NCBI RefSeq assembly: GCF_018760735.1
Contig: NZ_JAHHZN010000009.1
Span: 62,001 to 126,000, forward strand
Length of the DNA stretch: 64,000 nucleotides
Reading direction: 5' to 3'
DNA from: Hymenobacter piscis
GTDB taxonomy: Bacteria > Bacteroidota > Bacteroidia > Cytophagales > Hymenobacteraceae
A model generated the notes under the pieces. That model was not told the origin of the DNA and made no database searches. It was given only the letters and a program-made list of their open reading frames with translations. Made by a program: the position numbers and the translations under genes. Below are positions 13,528 to 20,200 of this stretch, in pieces (position 1 is the stretch's first letter; each line of letters starts with the position of its first letter).

Positions 13528-15057
13528 TTATTTCCAGTCGGGCCGGGTCGCATTCTGGAACAGCCGCACACGGTTGCGTCCATCTAGGTCCATCACCCAA
13601 ACCTCCGGCACCGACTGGGCTACGTTGTTGACCTGCACAAAAATAATCCGGGCCCCATCCGGGGCGTAGCGGGGCAGCACATCGTTAAAGCCCAGTGGCT
13701 TGCCCGAGGTGGACGTACCGCTTACTCCGGCTGACACATCGGTTACACCAGTACCATCCAGATTCTGCGTGAACACGTGCGCGTTGAGCTGGCGGCCGGT
13801 TCCATCCTCGAAACCGTCCAGGTCGCGGGTATAGAGCAGGCGGCGACCATCCACGCTGAAAGAAGGTGAATCGAGCCGGCCGGGCTGGTTGCGGACGGCC
13901 AGCGTCAGGTTGGTGCCATCGGCATTGAGCAGGTAGATTTCCGCGTCGTAGACGTTCACGCCTACCGTTTGCACCGCAATGCGGTTACCGAGCGCCGTCC
14001 AGTCGCACTCCCGGAAATGGCGGTTGGCGGGGGCCGTGGCCAGCAGCGTCAGCCCGGTTCCGTCGCGGTTAATGCGGTAGAGCTTGTTGTAGCTGCTGTA
14101 AATCAGCTGGGACCCATCGGGCGACCACCGGTAGCCGATGCCCTGGTTGAAATAACCATCCACCGGCTGCAACGTTACCTGCCGGCTGTCCGAACCGTCA
14201 CGGTTCATCGTGTAGAGCTGAAACTGCCCGGTTGCGTTGGAAGTATACGCCACCCGGTCGCGGTTGGGGCTGAGCTGAGGGGCCGTTTCGATGAACGGAG
14301 AGGACGTGAGCCGGAGCAGATTGGCGCCGGTTTCATCGGAGGAATAAATATCGGTATTGCCATTCTCAGTGCGGGCAAACAGGTAGCGGTTGTCCGGCTG
14401 GCTTTTGGTCTGGAAGCTCCAGACCTCACCCCGCACGGTTTCGCCGGCCTTGTCGCGCACCGTTACCTGCCAGAAATAGGTGGTATTGTATTTCAGGTTC
14501 GTGACGGTCACCATCGTGTCGCGGGAGTTGCTCAACAGTTGGCGACGGTCGGTAGAGTTGCTTTCGTAGAGCAGCACATCGTTACGGAGCGTGTCGCTTT
14601 TGCCATCGGGGTCGCTGACGCGCCACGTCAGCGTGAGGCTGGCATTTTGGTCGGAGGCTTTGTCGGCAGGGCTGGGGCTGGCGGGCCCGTTGGGCCGGCG
14701 ATTGGTACCCACCGCTTCTTCCAGCAGGATGCGCACCTCCGTCGTAGCATCCAGATTTACCTGCACGTTCACGGTTTCCTGCTTGTAATCCGTCTTCTTG
14801 ACGCTCAGTGCATACTTCCCCACTGCCAGATTGGAGATATCGAATTTACCCTGGGCATCGGTGGTATAGGAGGAAGTAGCCGGGTTGGTGGTAATGACCA
14901 CGTTGGCTAAGGGTTGATTGTCCTGACTATCGAGCACCACGCCCGAGAGGCTTCCGTTTTGAGCCGGTTCAATTGTCGTATCCTCACATCCCAACAGGGC
15001 TTGCACGCATAGTACAACCATCAGCAGCCGGGCTGCCAGGCGCAGATAAGATAACAT
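13528..15057 (-). CDS. Lipoprotein with carboxypeptidase-regulatory-like, FN3 and PD40/TolB-type propeller domains
   Basis: 509 aa from ATG 15057; the longer frame (15084) adds only nine residues ahead of the signal peptide. Lipobox at LCVQALLGC. Then come a carboxypeptidase-regulatory-like domain (about 30-110: GSLSGVVLDSQDNQPLANVVI), an FN3-like domain (about 120-220: YFWQVTVRDKAGETV), and a C-terminal TolB-like beta-propeller with repeated DGSDSRQVT, SPDGSQLIYSS and DGTGLTLLA words (PD40 repeats). It would sit in the outer membrane. It is the last gene on the strand of the curli cluster, 66 nt after csgH, so it may be an accessory factor (inference). Confidence 0.8.
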   Translation of the reverse strand: MLSYLRLAARLLMVVLCVQALLGCEDTTIEPAQNGSLSGVVLDSQDNQPLANVVITTNPATSSYTTDAQGKFDISNLAVGKYALSVKKTDYKQETVNVQVNLDATTEVRILLEEAVGTNRRPNGPASPSPADKASDQNASLTLTWRVSDPDGKSDTLRNDVLLYESNSTDRRQLLSNSRDTMVTVTNLKYNTTYFWQVTVRDKAGETVRGEVWSFQTKSQPDNRYLFARTENGNTDIYSSDETGANLLRLTSSPFIETAPQLSPNRDRVAYTSNATGQFQLYTMNRDGSDSRQVTLQPVDGYFNQGIGYRWSPDGSQLIYSSYNKLYRINRDGTGLTLLATAPANRHFRECDWTALGNRIAVQTVGVNVYDAEIYLLNADGTNLTLAVRNQPGRLDSPSFSVDGRRLLYTRDLDGFEDGTGRQLNAHVFTQNLDGTGVTDVSAGVSGTSTSGKPLGFNDVLPRYAPDGARIIFVQVNNVAQSVPEVWVMDLDGRNRVRLFQNATRPDWK

Positions 15058-15123
15058 CAGAGGGGGAAAACGGGTGGGAAACAAGCGGGAGAAAGAGCGG
15101 AAGAGGTGGGTAAAACCAGTGAA

Positions 15124-15486
15124 TCAGAGCCGGACGAGAGAATCCTGGGCCAGCAGGCGGTTATCGGCCCCAAACAGGCGCAGATGCACCCGGTACTGAT
15201 CGGCCTCGCCCACGTTCAGGGTACTTTGCGAAAGCACCCCACTCTCCCGGGCCCCAATCGTGAGGTATCCCGATTGTGCATTGTGGCTGGTACCGGCCGC
15301 GCCGCGCCGGTCGGTCACCATTTCGTAGCGGACTTCCAGCGTTTGGTCGGATGTATTATGGCAGCGGCCTACCAGCGTCAGGAGCGCCCCTTCGCGCCGG
15401 GCATCCAGGTGTACCTGGCAAGGGCTGGGCGACTGCGGCCATATTCCGCCCAGCGGGGCGAGCAACAAATATAAAAAGGGGTTCAT
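15124..15486 (-). CDS. csgH: CsgH-like curli chaperone
   Basis: 120 aa. Signal-like N-terminus (MNPFLYLLLAPLGGIWPQ), then a small beta-sandwich with PCQVHLDARREGALLTLVGRC (a possible disulphide), YEMVTDRRG.AGTSHNAQSG, and LSQSTLNVG. The pattern fits the CsgH-like domain, a periplasmic inhibitor of premature curlin polymerisation described in alphaproteobacteria and found in curli loci of other phyla. Position between the curlin-like gene and the end of the cluster supports this. A hairpin at 15516-15555 precedes it, so it may be expressed at a level different from the curlin genes. Confidence 0.75.
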   Translation of the reverse strand: MNPFLYLLLAPLGGIWPQSPSPCQVHLDARREGALLTLVGRCHNTSDQTLEVRYEMVTDRRGAAGTSHNAQSGYLTIGARESGVLSQSTLNVGEADQYRVHLRLFGADNRLLAQDSLVRL

Positions 15487-15562: not shown

Positions 15563-16153
15563 TCAGGGCAGTTGGGTGGCTTTGCCCTGCTCAATCATCA
15601 CGTTGATGCCGTTGCCGCGCATCGTTACGTTGTAGCCCGGGGCATTGCCCCCGGTTTCACGTTGCAGCAGGTTGTTGTTATTGCCCTGCTGCTCCACTGA
15701 ATAGCGCTGGTTGTCGCGCACCAGTTGCTGATCCACTTGGTTGCGGTTGCCGTTCTGCAGAATGTTCGACTCGGTATTGTAGCCCGTCAGGTCGCTGACG
15801 GCCACGTTGCCTGTGCCCACCTGCGTGATGGTAGTGCGGTTAGCCAGCCCCGTTTGCAGGGCGGCGGCGGCATTGCCGTTGCCGGTTTGCAGAATGGTAG
15901 CCACATTGCCCCGGCCAGCACTCAGCAAGTGTTGCTCAATAGTCGCTTGGTTGCCGTTGCCCTGTTGGGTAAGCAGGGCCTGGTTCTGGTTGTCGGGGCT
16001 AGCAGCGGGCAGCAACGCCGGGGTGGCACCGGCCTGCTGAATCAGCTGCTGGCCCGTACTGATATCCTCCGGATCTTGGCTCCGCTGCGCCCGGGCCTGC
16101 GTAGCGGCCAGCAGTGCCAGGCCCCAGAACAAATGCTTGATTGATGGTATCAT
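15563..16153 (-). CDS. Curlin-repeat protein, probable CsgB-like minor subunit
   Basis: 196 aa from ATG 16153; the upstream in-frame ATG (16192) precedes the signal peptide. Signal peptide MIPSIKHLFWGLALLAATQARA. The mature protein has curlin-type repeats with Gln, Gly and Asn spacing, such as LTQQGNGNQATIEQ, ILQTGNGNAAAALQ, TQVGTGNVAVSD and ILQNGNRNQVDQQ. It would form amyloid strand-turn-strand units at the cell surface. Compared with the other curlin gene it has fewer repeats and a repeat-poor N-terminal segment (residues 23-55), fitting a nucleator or minor subunit, but this is inference. An AT-rich promoter region lies upstream. Confidence 0.85.
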   Translation of the reverse strand: MIPSIKHLFWGLALLAATQARAQRSQDPEDISTGQQLIQQAGATPALLPAASPDNQNQALLTQQGNGNQATIEQHLLSAGRGNVATILQTGNGNAAAALQTGLANRTTITQVGTGNVAVSDLTGYNTESNILQNGNRNQVDQQLVRDNQRYSVEQQGNNNNLLQRETGGNAPGYNVTMRGNGINVMIEQGKATQLP

Positions 16154-16240
16154 ACATTGAAATTGAAAACGTGAAGAGAAGGCGTAGTACACTATATGTA
16201 GCCGGAACCGATGCTTTTACCAGTTAGCTATTATAAAAAT

Positions 16241-16497: not shown

Positions 16498-17451
16498 CTA
16501 CGGATGGTTTTGCTTTACCAGGCTGGTGTTATTGCTGCCAATCTGGAGTACGTCGCTGGAGTTACCGGTCATGCCCTGGTAGGTTGAAGCCGAGTTGCTG
16601 GAGCCCAACTGACGCTGACGGGCGTAGTGGTCGTCGCCATCCTGATCGATGTAGGCGCTGTTACCGGGCCGGAAGTCGGCGGCGGCACTCTGCTCCTGCA
16701 CGGCCGTGTTGCGGTAGCCGTCCTGCTCGATGCGGGCATTCTGCTCATCCAGCAACTGGGTCTGGGAGGCGCGGTTGTTACCCCCAATCTGCTCCACGTA
16801 GGCCCGGCTGTTGTAGCTGTGAATCAGGCCACCCTGGGTCTGCTTGGAGATGTTCTCGTAGCCGCTTTGCGTGGCCGTTGCTTCGTTGTACAGGCCCCGC
16901 TGGTCCTGATCGGCATTGTTGGCCCGGCCAATCTGCGAGATGCTGGCTTTGTTGCTCAGAGCGCTATAGTCGAGGGAGGCACGCTGGCGCTGGCGGGCGA
17001 CGTTGCCTTCGCTGCCACTCTGGAAAATGGTGGCCTCGTTGGTCGTTCCGGTCTGCTCCTGGGTTGAGGTATTCATACCGCTAAGCTGAGTAGCCGTGGC
17101 TTTGTTGCCATTGCCAACCTGCGTCTGGGTGGCCGTGTTGCCATTGTCGCGCGGAATAAAGTCGCCCTGAGTTACCTGCGCCTGGTTATTATTACCAGTT
17201 TGGGTTTGGGTAGATGTCTGGAAGCTGTTTTTCTGAACCGAAGAAGCGGAGTTGGATGAGCCCGCGTTCTGAGTCTGGGTGATGCTGTTGCTGTTGCCCG
17301 TCTGCGTACCCGAGGCCGTGCTCGAGCTACCTGCCTGCGTAACTGTAACGCTGTTGCTGTTACCGAGAGAGGAAGAAGACTGCGTATTGCCCTGAGCGAA
17401 GGCACCACCGGCAATCAACAGGGAGGCGGCAAGGAAAGTGAGCTTTTTCAT
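16498..17451 (-). CDS. Curlin-repeat protein, probable major amyloid subunit (CsgA-like)
   Basis: 317 aa. Signal peptide MKKLTFLAASLLIAGGAFAQ. The mature part is rich in Gln, Asn, Ser, Thr and Gly with about a dozen curlin-like units, for example TQAGSSSTASGTQTGNSNSI, TQTQVGNGNKATATQ, ISQIGRANNADQDQRG and LQIGSNNTSLVKQ. It is about twice the length of the E. coli subunit (151 aa). It is exported through CsgG and polymerises outside the cell (family knowledge). Irregular linkers such as FIPRDNGN and LDYSALSNK break the periodicity. Conserved AT-rich upstream DNA is shared with the minor curlin. Confidence 0.9.
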   Translation of the reverse strand: MKKLTFLAASLLIAGGAFAQGNTQSSSSLGNSNSVTVTQAGSSSTASGTQTGNSNSITQTQNAGSSNSASSVQKNSFQTSTQTQTGNNNQAQVTQGDFIPRDNGNTATQTQVGNGNKATATQLSGMNTSTQEQTGTTNEATIFQSGSEGNVARQRQRASLDYSALSNKASISQIGRANNADQDQRGLYNEATATQSGYENISKQTQGGLIHSYNSRAYVEQIGGNNRASQTQLLDEQNARIEQDGYRNTAVQEQSAAADFRPGNSAYIDQDGDDHYARQRQLGSSNSASTYQGMTGNSSDVLQIGSNNTSLVKQNHP

Positions 17452-17661: not shown

Positions 17662-19068
17662 TTAGCGAAGGGACTGGCGTTGGCCGGCGGGGTTGCGACC
17701 CAGATAAAAAGTGAGACCACCACGCAAGGAGCCATATGAATCATTATACGTTCCCAGCGTAATCCTATCGAGCTGATCAGTCAAAAAGTAACGCCCCTCC
17801 AGGCCCACACTCAGGCCCACCCGATCGGTAAGCAGGTACTCCACTCCCACGCCGGCCGTGAGATGCCCCAGAGCAGCACGGGCATTAGTCCCTCGTGCTC
17901 GGGCCGTAACGCCGCCGCCGGCCAGCACAAATGGCGTAAACCGATCCTGAGGAAACAACCGGTACTGGCCGCACGCTTCCAGGTAGTTAAAGGTTTCCCG
18001 GTAAAAGTCGCCGGCCCCCAGCTCAAAGCGTCCCAGGTGCACGGATGCGGCCAGCTTCGGGTTTACGGCCTGATAATGCAGACTCAGCTGGCCACCGGCC
18101 CGCAGCTGCGGGCTTTTGAAGTCACCGTTGTAGCGGGTAGCGGCTCCGCTCAGGCTTAGTCCCAGGCGCCCGCGCCGCTCCCGCTGCACACGGCCCAGCA
18201 CGTCAGTCTGCTGGTTTTCGGCTTTCTCGCGCAGATAAGCGGCCACGGCGGGCCCTTGCACATCGGCCTCGTTCAAGGGCGACCACAGGTTATCACGAAT
18301 GCCTTCATAAATCAGGGCTTCCACCGATTTTTCAATGGCCTCCTTCACCGCCATCTCGGTGGGCTCATTGTACGTGAAGCCGGTTTCAGTTTCCAGCAGG
18401 CGCTTAAAGTTCACGAACCGGAACAGACTGGCATCTACCTGCTGAGAGAGAATGGTTTTGGAGGTGTATACGGTTTTGAGAATTTCGCCCGTGCTGGTAC
18501 TGATGGCCCGCAGATACACCGTTACGCGGTCCTGACGGTACTGGCCCGAGGCCCCGGCCCCAAAATAGCGCAACCCCGCCCCGCCCGTAATCACGTTGGC
18601 ATCGTAGGATACTACCCCGCCTTCGAGCAGAATGCCAGCGAACAACAGGGAAGGCAGCGCCGGTTGCCGCTGGCCGGTCAGGTCCTGGTATTCGGCCCGG
18701 CTGGAACGGATGATTTTGCGCTCGTTGAGCAGGTTGCCCAGGTTTTCGCGCTCAATGGGATTAAACCAGCGTGATTCCTCCAGGGCCCGCAGCAAAATGC
18801 TGGTACTTCCCTGGGTGATGGCCGTTGAGAAACTCGACCCGTTTTGGCTGGGCTTGTACTGACCGGTCTGGTCGCGGAACTTATAGACGGCAGCCACAAT
18901 CCGCTCCCGGGGCGGCGGCAGCTGATAGAGCGCCCGGTTGCCCTCCACATCGGCTCCCAGCCGGGCCTTTTCCGGCGTAAACGACTGATGAAAAAACGGG
19001 GCGCAGGCCGTAGCTGCCCCCCAAACCCCCACTCCCAACAACACCCGACGACACAAGGAACGTAGCAT
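17662..19068 (-). CDS. csgG: CsgG curli secretion channel fused to a C-terminal outer-membrane beta-barrel-like domain
   Basis: 468 aa against 277 in E. coli. Lipobox AATAC (C22) as in CsgG lipoproteins. Residues about 50-290 are the CsgG domain: VAAVYKFRDQTGQYKPS, SSFSTAITQGSTSILLRALE, FNPIERENLGNLLNERKIIR and FAGILLEGGVVSYDANV. After about residue 300 comes a 165-residue segment of alternating hydrophobic strands and turns (LGLSLSGAATRYNGDF, FVLAGGGVTARARG, VGLSVGLEGRYF, SLRGGLTFYLG), typical of an OmpA-like or OprF-like barrel. CsgG forms a nonameric pore that exports curlins. The added domain may be a separate barrel or periplasmic collar (inference). It lies between csgF and the curlin genes. 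Confidence 0.92.
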   Translation of the reverse strand: MLRSLCRRVLLGVGVWGAATACAPFFHQSFTPEKARLGADVEGNRALYQLPPPRERIVAAVYKFRDQTGQYKPSQNGSSFSTAITQGSTSILLRALEESRWFNPIERENLGNLLNERKIIRSSRAEYQDLTGQRQPALPSLLFAGILLEGGVVSYDANVITGGAGLRYFGAGASGQYRQDRVTVYLRAISTSTGEILKTVYTSKTILSQQVDASLFRFVNFKRLLETETGFTYNEPTEMAVKEAIEKSVEALIYEGIRDNLWSPLNEADVQGPAVAAYLREKAENQQTDVLGRVQRERRGRLGLSLSGAATRYNGDFKSPQLRAGGQLSLHYQAVNPKLAASVHLGRFELGAGDFYRETFNYLEACGQYRLFPQDRFTPFVLAGGGVTARARGTNARAALGHLTAGVGVEYLLTDRVGLSVGLEGRYFLTDQLDRITLGTYNDSYGSLRGGLTFYLGRNPAGQRQSLR

Positions 19069-19086: not shown

Positions 19087-19521
19087 TTAAAAGTAAGGCA
19101 CCGTAACGGTGGTCTGGTTGCCGGTATTGGTATCGGTGATCTGGATGGAAAAGCCTCCGCTGGAGGGCACCACGTTGATCTGGTAGGAGCCGACGTTGTA
19201 GTTGCCCGCCTGCAGGCCCTGCCCGGCGCTGCCGAACTGATTGCCCACGAGCTTCTGAGCCAGCTGCCCCAGAATCTGCTGATTCAGGTTCTGCTCAAAC
19301 TGCTTGATTGGGTCCTGTTGGAACGGGTTAGACGTGGAAGCCGCCGGGTCAGCAATGGAGTTCTGAGACTGAGCCGAGCTCAGCAGCCAGGAATAATTGA
19401 ACGTGTTGCCTCCCCCGAAAGCGGGGTTTTTGGGCTCGTACACGAAATCCTGGCCCATTGCGCCATGCGCAAACAACGCGAGCAGGGCCACCAGCGCGGC
19501 ACGGAGGATGGAAGAGTTCAT
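19087..19521 (-). CDS. csgF: Curli assembly factor CsgF
   Basis: 144 aa from ATG 19521, which starts a clean signal peptide (MNSSILRAALVALLALFAHGAMGQ); the frame continues upstream to 19626 inside csgE and is not used. The mature N-terminus DFVYEPKNPAFGGGNTFNYSWL is the CsgF signature that plugs the CsgG pore. The C-terminal beta part ends QTTVTVPYF. It couples secretion to nucleation at the cell surface. The gap to csgG is 18 nt, so they are co-transcribed. Confidence 0.95.
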   Translation of the reverse strand: MNSSILRAALVALLALFAHGAMGQDFVYEPKNPAFGGGNTFNYSWLLSSAQSQNSIADPAASTSNPFQQDPIKQFEQNLNQQILGQLAQKLVGNQFGSAGQGLQAGNYNVGSYQINVVPSSGGFSIQITDTNTGNQTTVTVPYF

Positions 19522-19564
19522 ACCAATGAAATGGGTGGAGTAAGACGAATCAGAATCGGGAGGC

Positions 19565-20200
19565 TCAGAATACTTCGGGCGGAACGCGGCCCCCGCGCTC
19601 CAGCTGGCGGCTTTCGTCGCGGGCACGCGCCAGGAACTCCTGGGCCACTGATAAAGCGTAGGCGGCCAGCTCCTCTACTACTTCCGCCTTGGGCTGAAGC
19701 GGCAATTCGAGCAGCTCGTTGTCGTTCACTTCGAGCGAAATCAGGGTACTGGTGCCGCGGGCGGGCTTTTCGCGCACCACAATGGTGAAATCCGTTACGC
19801 CCGGCGGCACTTCCCAGTGGGTGTAAAACTCGTCGTAGAAGTCGTGGCCAAACTTGGAAATCGTCTGATCCATGACCAGCCCGTCGATTTCAGTAGCCTT
19901 GAACTGGCGCCGCTCCTGCCCCGCCGACGAGTCGCCTACTGCCTGTAGCAACAGGCGCAGGGCTTCTTCGAGCTTTTTGGGCGGCAACGGTACGGCCTCC
20001 GACTCCTTGGTGGCGGCCGGTGGAGCAGGTTTGAGAGGTGGTTTAGGAGGTGGTTTAGGAGGTGTAACCTGAGCGGCCGCGCTCAGGCTCAGCAACACCA
20101 GCATCAGGCAACTTACCCCCAGGGCCCACGGCCGCCACCACAGATAATACACCACGGGACGCGCGGGTTTTTCAGACGAGGACGTGGATGTTGCAGGCAT
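19565..20200 (-). CDS. csgE: Curli secretion specificity factor CsgE
   Basis: 211 aa; larger than E. coli CsgE (129 aa) because of the N-terminus. Residues 1-45 carry a charged stretch and a long hydrophobic segment (signal peptide or anchor: WALGVSCLMLVLLSLSAAAQ). A Pro/Lys-rich linker follows (TPPKPPPKPPLKPAPP, about 46-65), then the CsgE domain (about 78-205: GLVMDQTISKFGHDFYDEFY, then FTIVVREKPARGTSTLI, ALSVAQEFLAR). It caps the CsgG channel on the periplasmic side and selects curlin. It is the first gene of the csgE-csgF-csgG unit, preceded by about 140 bp of AT-rich DNA. Confidence 0.92.
   Translation of the reverse strand: MPATSTSSSEKPARPVVYYLWWRPWALGVSCLMLVLLSLSAAAQVTPPKPPPKPPLKPAPPAATKESEAVPLPPKKLEEALRLLLQAVGDSSAGQERRQFKATEIDGLVMDQTISKFGHDFYDEFYTHWEVPPGVTDFTIVVREKPARGTSTLISLEVNDNELLELPLQPKAEVVEELAAYALSVAQEFLARARDESRQLERGGRVPPEVF

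Follow-up and report, generated by a model that had tools for sequence, protein, structure and literature searches.

Sequence searches and structure prediction point to a Bacteroidota curli pore in which each CsgG protomer would end in its own eight-stranded, OmpA-type barrel, the nine satellite barrels serving mainly as membrane anchors; we put the probability of this reading at roughly two in three. No amyloid exporter has been studied better than CsgG, which is also well known as a nanopore. The gene in question belongs to Hymenobacter piscis and lies in a stretch of 64,000 nt (contig NZ_JAHHZN010000009.1, positions 62,001 to 126,000), hereafter referred to as the window. As judged from sequence, the fused form is widespread in Bacteroidota. 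No description of a barrel fused to CsgG was found in the open-licence literature, although one may exist elsewhere.

A curli operon with a fused csgG gene

Read leftwards, the operon comprises csgE, csgF, csgG, two curlin-repeat genes, a gene for a CsgH-type chaperone and a lipoprotein gene (Table 1). The csgG gene is a single open reading frame of 468 codons with an ATG start and zero internal stops, and the nearest named relative of its product, from Hymenobacter rubripertinctus, is 90% identical. A preliminary description, made from the DNA letters, had presented this gene as a CsgG with a C-terminal barrel-like domain; its coordinates, strand and length were right, and both parts are borne out by the PF03783 match and the AlphaFold2 barrel described below. 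The CsgH-type chaperone was matched in 33 of the 50 csg loci collected from named genomes. In the main text of Dueholm 2012 (PMC3521004), csgH is described for Alphaproteobacteria.

Table 1 Features of the curli operon and of the fused csgG gene in the window.
Feature	Position	Strand	Evidence
csgE	19565..20200	-	PF10627, E 9.3e-24
csgF (frame as called; real start probably downstream)	19087..19626	-	PF10614, E 5.8e-43
csgG-barrel fusion gene	17662..19068	-	468 aa; single open frame; PF03783 and weak OMP_b-brl
Lipoprotein signal peptide, residues 1-22, Cys22 as lipidation site	19003..19068	-	Cys22 in 51/51 homologues; lipobox by eye
CsgG pore domain, residues 50-264	18277..18921	-	PF03783, E 8e-66; E. 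coli CsgG structures, E ~1.5e-63
Linker, residues 287-301, from last CsgG helix (273-286) to first barrel strand	18166..18210	-	AlphaFold2 secondary structure
Predicted eight-stranded transmembrane barrel domain, residues 302-456	17701..18165	-	AlphaFold2, Foldseek, VIA, face pattern
Loop between strands 7 and 8, residues 429-442	17743..17784	-	Length 14 in 51/51; predicted extracellular
C-terminal strand with BAM-type beta-signal R449-x-G451-x-x-F454-x-L456	17701..17724	-	Column counts, 51 homologues
Curlin-repeat fibre subunit	16498..17451	-	PF07012, 7 stretches, E 2.8e-21
Second curlin-repeat subunit	15563..16192	-	PF07012, 4 stretches, E 4.1e-11
CsgH-type curli chaperone	15124..15486	-	NF041112, E 4e-15, 55.6 bits (cut-off 35)
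Predicted surface lipoprotein	13528..15084	-	CarboxypepD_reg, fn3 and PD40 matches

The fusion protein seems to retain an ordinary CsgG pore

The PF03783 match scored 221.8 bits against a cut-off of 20.8 and covered profile positions 3-208 of 210. Structures of E. coli CsgG aligned to residues 42-279 of the fusion protein, the alignment ending at 278-279, which leaves about 189 residues beyond it. The extension had initially been put at about 165 residues, an estimate close to the 155 residues of the modelled barrel. The protein seems to keep an ordinary CsgG pore, because residues 145-279, which we take to be the stretch holding both CsgG transmembrane hairpins, align with E. coli CsgG free of gaps. 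In the full-length AlphaFold2 model, the presumed hairpin region reached pLDDT values of 26-57 (ten-residue blocks), as would be expected if these strands find their pairing partners only in neighbouring protomers.

A full-length PF03783 match above the cut-off, a lipoprotein cysteine and csgE, csgF and curlin genes alongside together mark the protein as a curli pore. Its score against NF011731, the NCBIfam equivalog for E. coli-type CsgG, was below the cut-off (229.5 versus 505 bits), so that by sequence it is homologous to this model, yet outside the narrow equivalog. The lipidation cysteine is kept in 51/51 homologues, none of which has an acidic residue at positions +2 to +7 after it; for that reason the CsgG part should stay on the periplasmic side, as does E. 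coli CsgG.

The constriction loop of the fusion protein (residues 73-80; 18829-18852, minus strand) differs from that of E. coli CsgG, in which a passage of PMC9245180 places the constriction residues Y51, N55 and F56. The fusion CsgG has one inserted residue in this loop and a serine in place of Y51, and the residues common at that position across the 51 homologues are non-aromatic. The N55 position is Ser or Thr, and the F56 position F, Y or W, in 51/51.

Structure prediction supports a transmembrane barrel at the C-terminus

AlphaFold2 predicted, for the full-length protein, eight antiparallel strands (residues 302-314, 320-333, 339-352, 356-370, 377-390, 400-412, 417-428 and 443-456), forming a barrel of 155 residues that follows a linker of about 15 residues. 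Monomer modelling, a check that the preliminary description had proposed, thereby returned an eight-strand barrel whose pLDDT was 70-95 in ten-residue blocks, mostly at least 85, with strands mostly at 85-95. Modelled alone, the domain reached a mean pLDDT of 87.8 and a pTM of 0.80.

Besides CsgG entries, a Foldseek search against the PDB returned NspA (6e-8), followed by OmpA, Ail, OmpX, PagL and OprF. For the isolated barrel, VIA gave a Z score of 19.2 against a Dot/Icm-associated porin and of 17.9 against NspA, while the best entries for OmpA and OprF reached 17.1-17.7. Lower down came OmpX entries (Z 11.4-12.0), designed soluble barrels (11.9-12.6), which thus score as high as OmpX entries, and soluble PsbO barrels (about 10). 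The reading of the C-terminal extension as a transmembrane, eight-stranded barrel of the OmpA/NspA type is well supported by these models. These relatives share the fold, whereas the matched OmpA, NspA and OmpX entries are, by their titles, not fused to a secretion pore.

Against the Pfam family OMP_b-brl (PF13505), the H. piscis protein itself scored below the cut-off of 28.7 bits, both as a whole (17.2 bits) and with its C-terminal part (21.2 bits). The same profile matched 33 of 45 homologous barrel domains at E ≤ 0.01 (best 6.8e-13), and the PorG profile matched 43 of the 45, the set being the 51 homologues minus six close relatives.

The barrel is conserved and evolves faster than the pore domain

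The preliminary description had noted alternating hydrophobic strands. Across the 51 homologues this holds for strands 2, 5, 6, 7 and 8, whose more hydrophobic face is 0-1% charged as compared to 11-38% on the opposite face, and fails for strands 1, 3 and 4, which have no clean hydrophobic face (10% charged on the more hydrophobic versus 1% on the other face for strand 1; 5% and 29% versus 16% and 14% for strands 3 and 4). Among the turns, T2 and T3 have short, constant lengths (6 and 4), with T1 varying between 4 and 6; loops L2 and L3 are variable (3-6 and 6-14), and L1 and L4 constant (5 and 14). As a sequence-based argument, these lengths support in part a placement of both barrel ends in the periplasm. 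Within the invariably 14-residue loop between strands 7 and 8, D431 is invariant and D434 is present in at least 90% of homologues.

In the last strand, R or K occupies position 449 in 35 of the 51 homologues, G451 is kept in 46, F, L, Y or W stands at 454 in 50 and L, F or I at 456 in 49. The resulting pattern fits what we take to be the consensus of the BAM beta-signal.

The ratio dN/dS of the barrel was 0.028-0.254 in seven of nine species pairs with computable dS (one near saturation, dS 2.3), and that of the CsgG domain was at most 0.115 in all nine. By this measure the barrel is under purifying selection, which is weaker than on the CsgG domain, and evolves faster. Given this selection, and near-full-length homologues at 43-90% identity in 50/50 loci, the extension is not a product of chance.

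A related barrel was seen as a gene of its own in a flavobacterial-type genome (G226; locus L155, 4995-5669). It encodes a free-standing 224-aa barrel with its own signal peptide by eye, matches the CsgG-barrel profile at E 3.4e-35 and is 28% identical to the barrel of the fused locus L156. The genome has zero PF03783 matches, and the gene directly adjoins another that is 80% identical to one flanking the curli operon in L156. Since a related barrel occurs as a free gene, the domain can exist as an autonomous unit.

The fused form accompanies every strong csgF match in a phylum sample

The 50 loci returned by a pattern scan of named genomes all aligned near full length. Within the genus, 55 of 101 genomes carry the gene, which is split in one of them (G458), and CsgG and barrel shared a single frame in 29/29 loci tested. 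In a sample of 395 genomes from the phylum, 125 had some PF03783 match; as this family includes paralogues, csgF was used for a clean count. Strong CsgF matches (E 2e-29 or better) occurred in 41 genomes, and weak ones (E 1.9e-6 to 5.1e-4) in nine others. The same 41 genomes are those whose CsgG match runs to profile position 456-468 of 470, i.e. through the barrel. Direct inspection showed an open frame that continues from CsgG into the barrel in 37 of the 41 (30 loci, six more and L157; 29 of the 30 passed the filter of the frame script and L131 was judged from ranges), and the open frames of the remaining four (G119, G104, G042 and G231) measure 460-504 aa. The survey of CsgG length suggested by the preliminary description thus returned barrel-length CsgG in 41/41 genomes with strong csgF. 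On this sequence evidence, the fused CsgG is no peculiarity of H. piscis and occurs alongside each strong csgF of the phylum sample.

CsgG without a barrel was found in one family (f18), which we call green-sulfur-like because PF02327, the FMO bacteriochlorophyll protein of green sulfur bacteria, matches nine of its ten genomes (as compared to 0/4 other sample genomes). Its 11 CsgG matches, in the ten genomes, end at profile position 282-312, within open frames of 296-344 aa. In seven of the ten a weak CsgF match adjoins CsgG, with curlin-like repeats nearby by eye. An unfused counterpart, i.e. a short CsgG with a separate barrel gene beside it, found no support in the six f18 loci read (of ten genomes): five had no barrel match, and the sixth (L153) had a single weak match (E 4e-6), located on the opposite strand some 4 kb away from csgG. 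Eight other short f18 matches (L111-L118) belong to a different CsgG-domain paralogue of about 240-270 aa, with E values of 7e-9 to 6e-6 against the curli profile.

As a control we used a phylum presumed to be Pseudomonadota, entered via the Alteromonadaceae-labelled MAG G493. CsgG was matched in 28 of 349 genomes. G493 itself was left out, its fused gene lying on a 5-kb contig with 90% identity to Gilvibacter and probably being misbinned. In the other 27 genomes, all 28 CsgG matches end at profile position 265-302, before the barrel, and none of the five loci tested directly had a barrel after CsgG. Two control CsgG with long frames (G632 and G662) have tails that by eye look low-complexity or disordered rather than barrel-like.

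In a tree of 27 CsgG domains, 18 fused sequences lie on one side of a branch and six short ones on the other (support 100/100). Fused csgG genes were also seen on MAG contigs labelled Sulfurovum (L042) and Alteromonadaceae (L048). The former nests with Lutibacter-type genes in the tree, the latter is 90% identical to Gilvibacter, and both contigs are probably misbinned. Further barrel matches lie inside plasmid genes of Hymenobacter and Salinibacter (NZ_CP043645, NZ_CP043649, NZ_CP030372 and NC_014157), where all four records name the barrel-bearing protein 'CsgG/HfaB family protein'.

A companion lipoprotein accompanies the fused loci

Of the 50 csg loci, mostly from Hymenobacter, 47 have a homologue of the lipoprotein encoded at the end of the operon, as have 25 of 35 additional loci with the fusion. 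In 30 of these 35 the sequence on either side extends for just about 1.5 kb; two genomes occur twice, three loci were matched by their own sequence as the query, and the window's own genome was missed as its flank was too short. No homologue was found in the six barrel-less green-sulfur-type loci, or in eight control loci, the latter being a weak comparison since seven of them are about 4 kb or less. The 75 loci examined yielded 70 homologues, in each of which the five positions that follow the cysteine include one to three acidic residues (at least two in 60). These residues resemble the lipoprotein export signal described in Lauber 2016 (PMC5080379), on account of which the companion is predicted to reside on the cell surface, the side to which the outer loops of the barrels would be exposed. 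It is a candidate partner of the barrel, an interaction being a guess at this stage, and possibly an unrecognised Bacteroidota curli component.

These observations bear on an alternative in which the barrel would serve chiefly for docking, with outer loops that hold the companion lipoprotein or curli subunits at the pore exit, and anchoring would be secondary. The co-occurrence of companion and fused gene, as opposed to 0/6 at barrel-less loci, speaks for docking, as do the acidic residues that every companion homologue (70/70) but no CsgG (51/51) carries after the cysteine, and a loop between strands 7 and 8 of constant length with an invariant aspartate. However, the co-occurrence is confounded by common ancestry, and the conserved loop may be a general trait of PorG-like barrels, given the PorG profile matches in 43/45. 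We regard docking as the main function as doubtful.

Equally tentative is an extension of the same thought, namely a distinct Bacteroidota curli secreton, with nine fused 8-strand barrels around a 36-strand CsgG pore. The outer loops of these barrels would bind a dedicated lipoprotein at the surface (CarboxypepD_reg, with a propeller or lacking one), giving an amyloid-assembly surface platform absent in E. coli. If true, BAM-inserted barrels, a lipidated pore facing the periplasm and a surface lipoprotein that has been flipped would all belong to one outer-membrane complex.

A proposed architecture with nine satellite barrels

Under the preferred reading, barrels as anchors, the CsgG part would be lipidated, face the periplasm and assemble into the familiar CsgG nonamer, whose protomers jointly form a 36-strand pore. 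The C-terminal barrel would be inserted by BAM beside the ring, with both of its ends periplasmic and the conserved loop between strands 7 and 8 facing outwards. As the preliminary description had suggested, nine small barrels probably surround the assembled pore, carried on short linkers in its finished state; most likely they anchor the ring to the outer membrane, and they may also form a surface platform. By standard barrel formulas, nine 8-strand barrels (about 26 Å wide) fit round a 36-strand barrel with a neighbour spacing of 32-37 Å.

E. coli CsgG reportedly assembles without BamA or TamA, going by the title of Dunstan's 2015 study, for which reason the fusion would combine two assembly routes in one chain. 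The barrel might then be mainly a biogenesis tag, by which BAM delivers CsgG to the outer membrane, and have no role after pore assembly. The C-terminal beta-signal would suit such a tag, and a BAM-type barrel would open another route besides the E. coli-type assembly just mentioned. Yet the lipidated cysteine is kept in 51/51 homologues and a conserved outer loop would be superfluous for a pure tag, so that we consider this explanation unlikely, more so than docking.

The possibility that the extension is disordered or soluble, or results from a frame error joining two genes, which the preliminary description had named as what would refute it, is very improbable and is rejected: the tails of the two control CsgG with long frames and some soluble barrels among the VIA matches lean that way, but the barrel models are confident, the best fold matches are transmembrane barrels (with PsbO at only Z ~10 and designed barrels at 11.9-12.6), and a single frame without internal stop runs through the gene and through 30 phylum and 29 genus loci, just G458 being split among 55 genus genomes.

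Relation to known systems

Like the fusion protein, E. coli CsgG is a lipoprotein with PF03783 encoded beside csgE and csgF, but at 277 aa it ends before the barrel. Among solved structures, five distinct CsgG sequences were matched, of 262-285 residues and without a barrel. The green-sulfur-type CsgG shares the CsgG domain, and some of its loci a weak CsgF neighbour, yet it too lacks the barrel. As both green-sulfur-type and E. coli CsgG do without it, the barrel is not needed for secretion as such. In the main text of Dueholm 2012 (PMC3521004), CsgA size is stated not to affect CsgG size, and the words 'C-terminal' and 'barrel' are absent.

By analogy, PorG would be a close precedent for covalent barrel anchoring. 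Passages of PMC12635249 describe it as an eight-stranded Bacteroidota outer-membrane barrel covalently joined to the outer-membrane lipoprotein ring of the type IX system, and, together with passages of PMC7463736, they report a disulfide that ties it to the lipoprotein ring or track formed by PorK/GldK. The likeness lies in a barrel tied covalently to a lipoprotein ring and in the PorG profile matches reported above. PorG is a separate protein linked by a disulfide via a Cys-bearing periplasmic C-terminal tail, whereas in the fusion the barrel shares the CsgG chain. A cysteine after residue 456 is absent in 51/51 fused homologues, and the PorG model NF052316 scored 28.6 bits, below its cut-off of 130.

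The preliminary description had raised the prospect of a new outer-membrane secretion architecture. What stands is an extra barrel on the curli pore; because the fused CsgG keeps the known pore and adds to it, it counts as a variant within the curli (type VIII) system, not as a secretion system of a new kind.

The fused locus also points to a curli-locus lipoprotein for which no description was found in the open-licence literature. If the fused form is the Bacteroidota norm, it would be a second case, after PorG, of small barrels covalently fixed to a lipoprotein ring in this phylum. A BAM-type barrel and a reportedly BAM-independent pore would then reside in one chain, and the view of how the curli pore enters, and is seated in, the outer membrane would have to widen.
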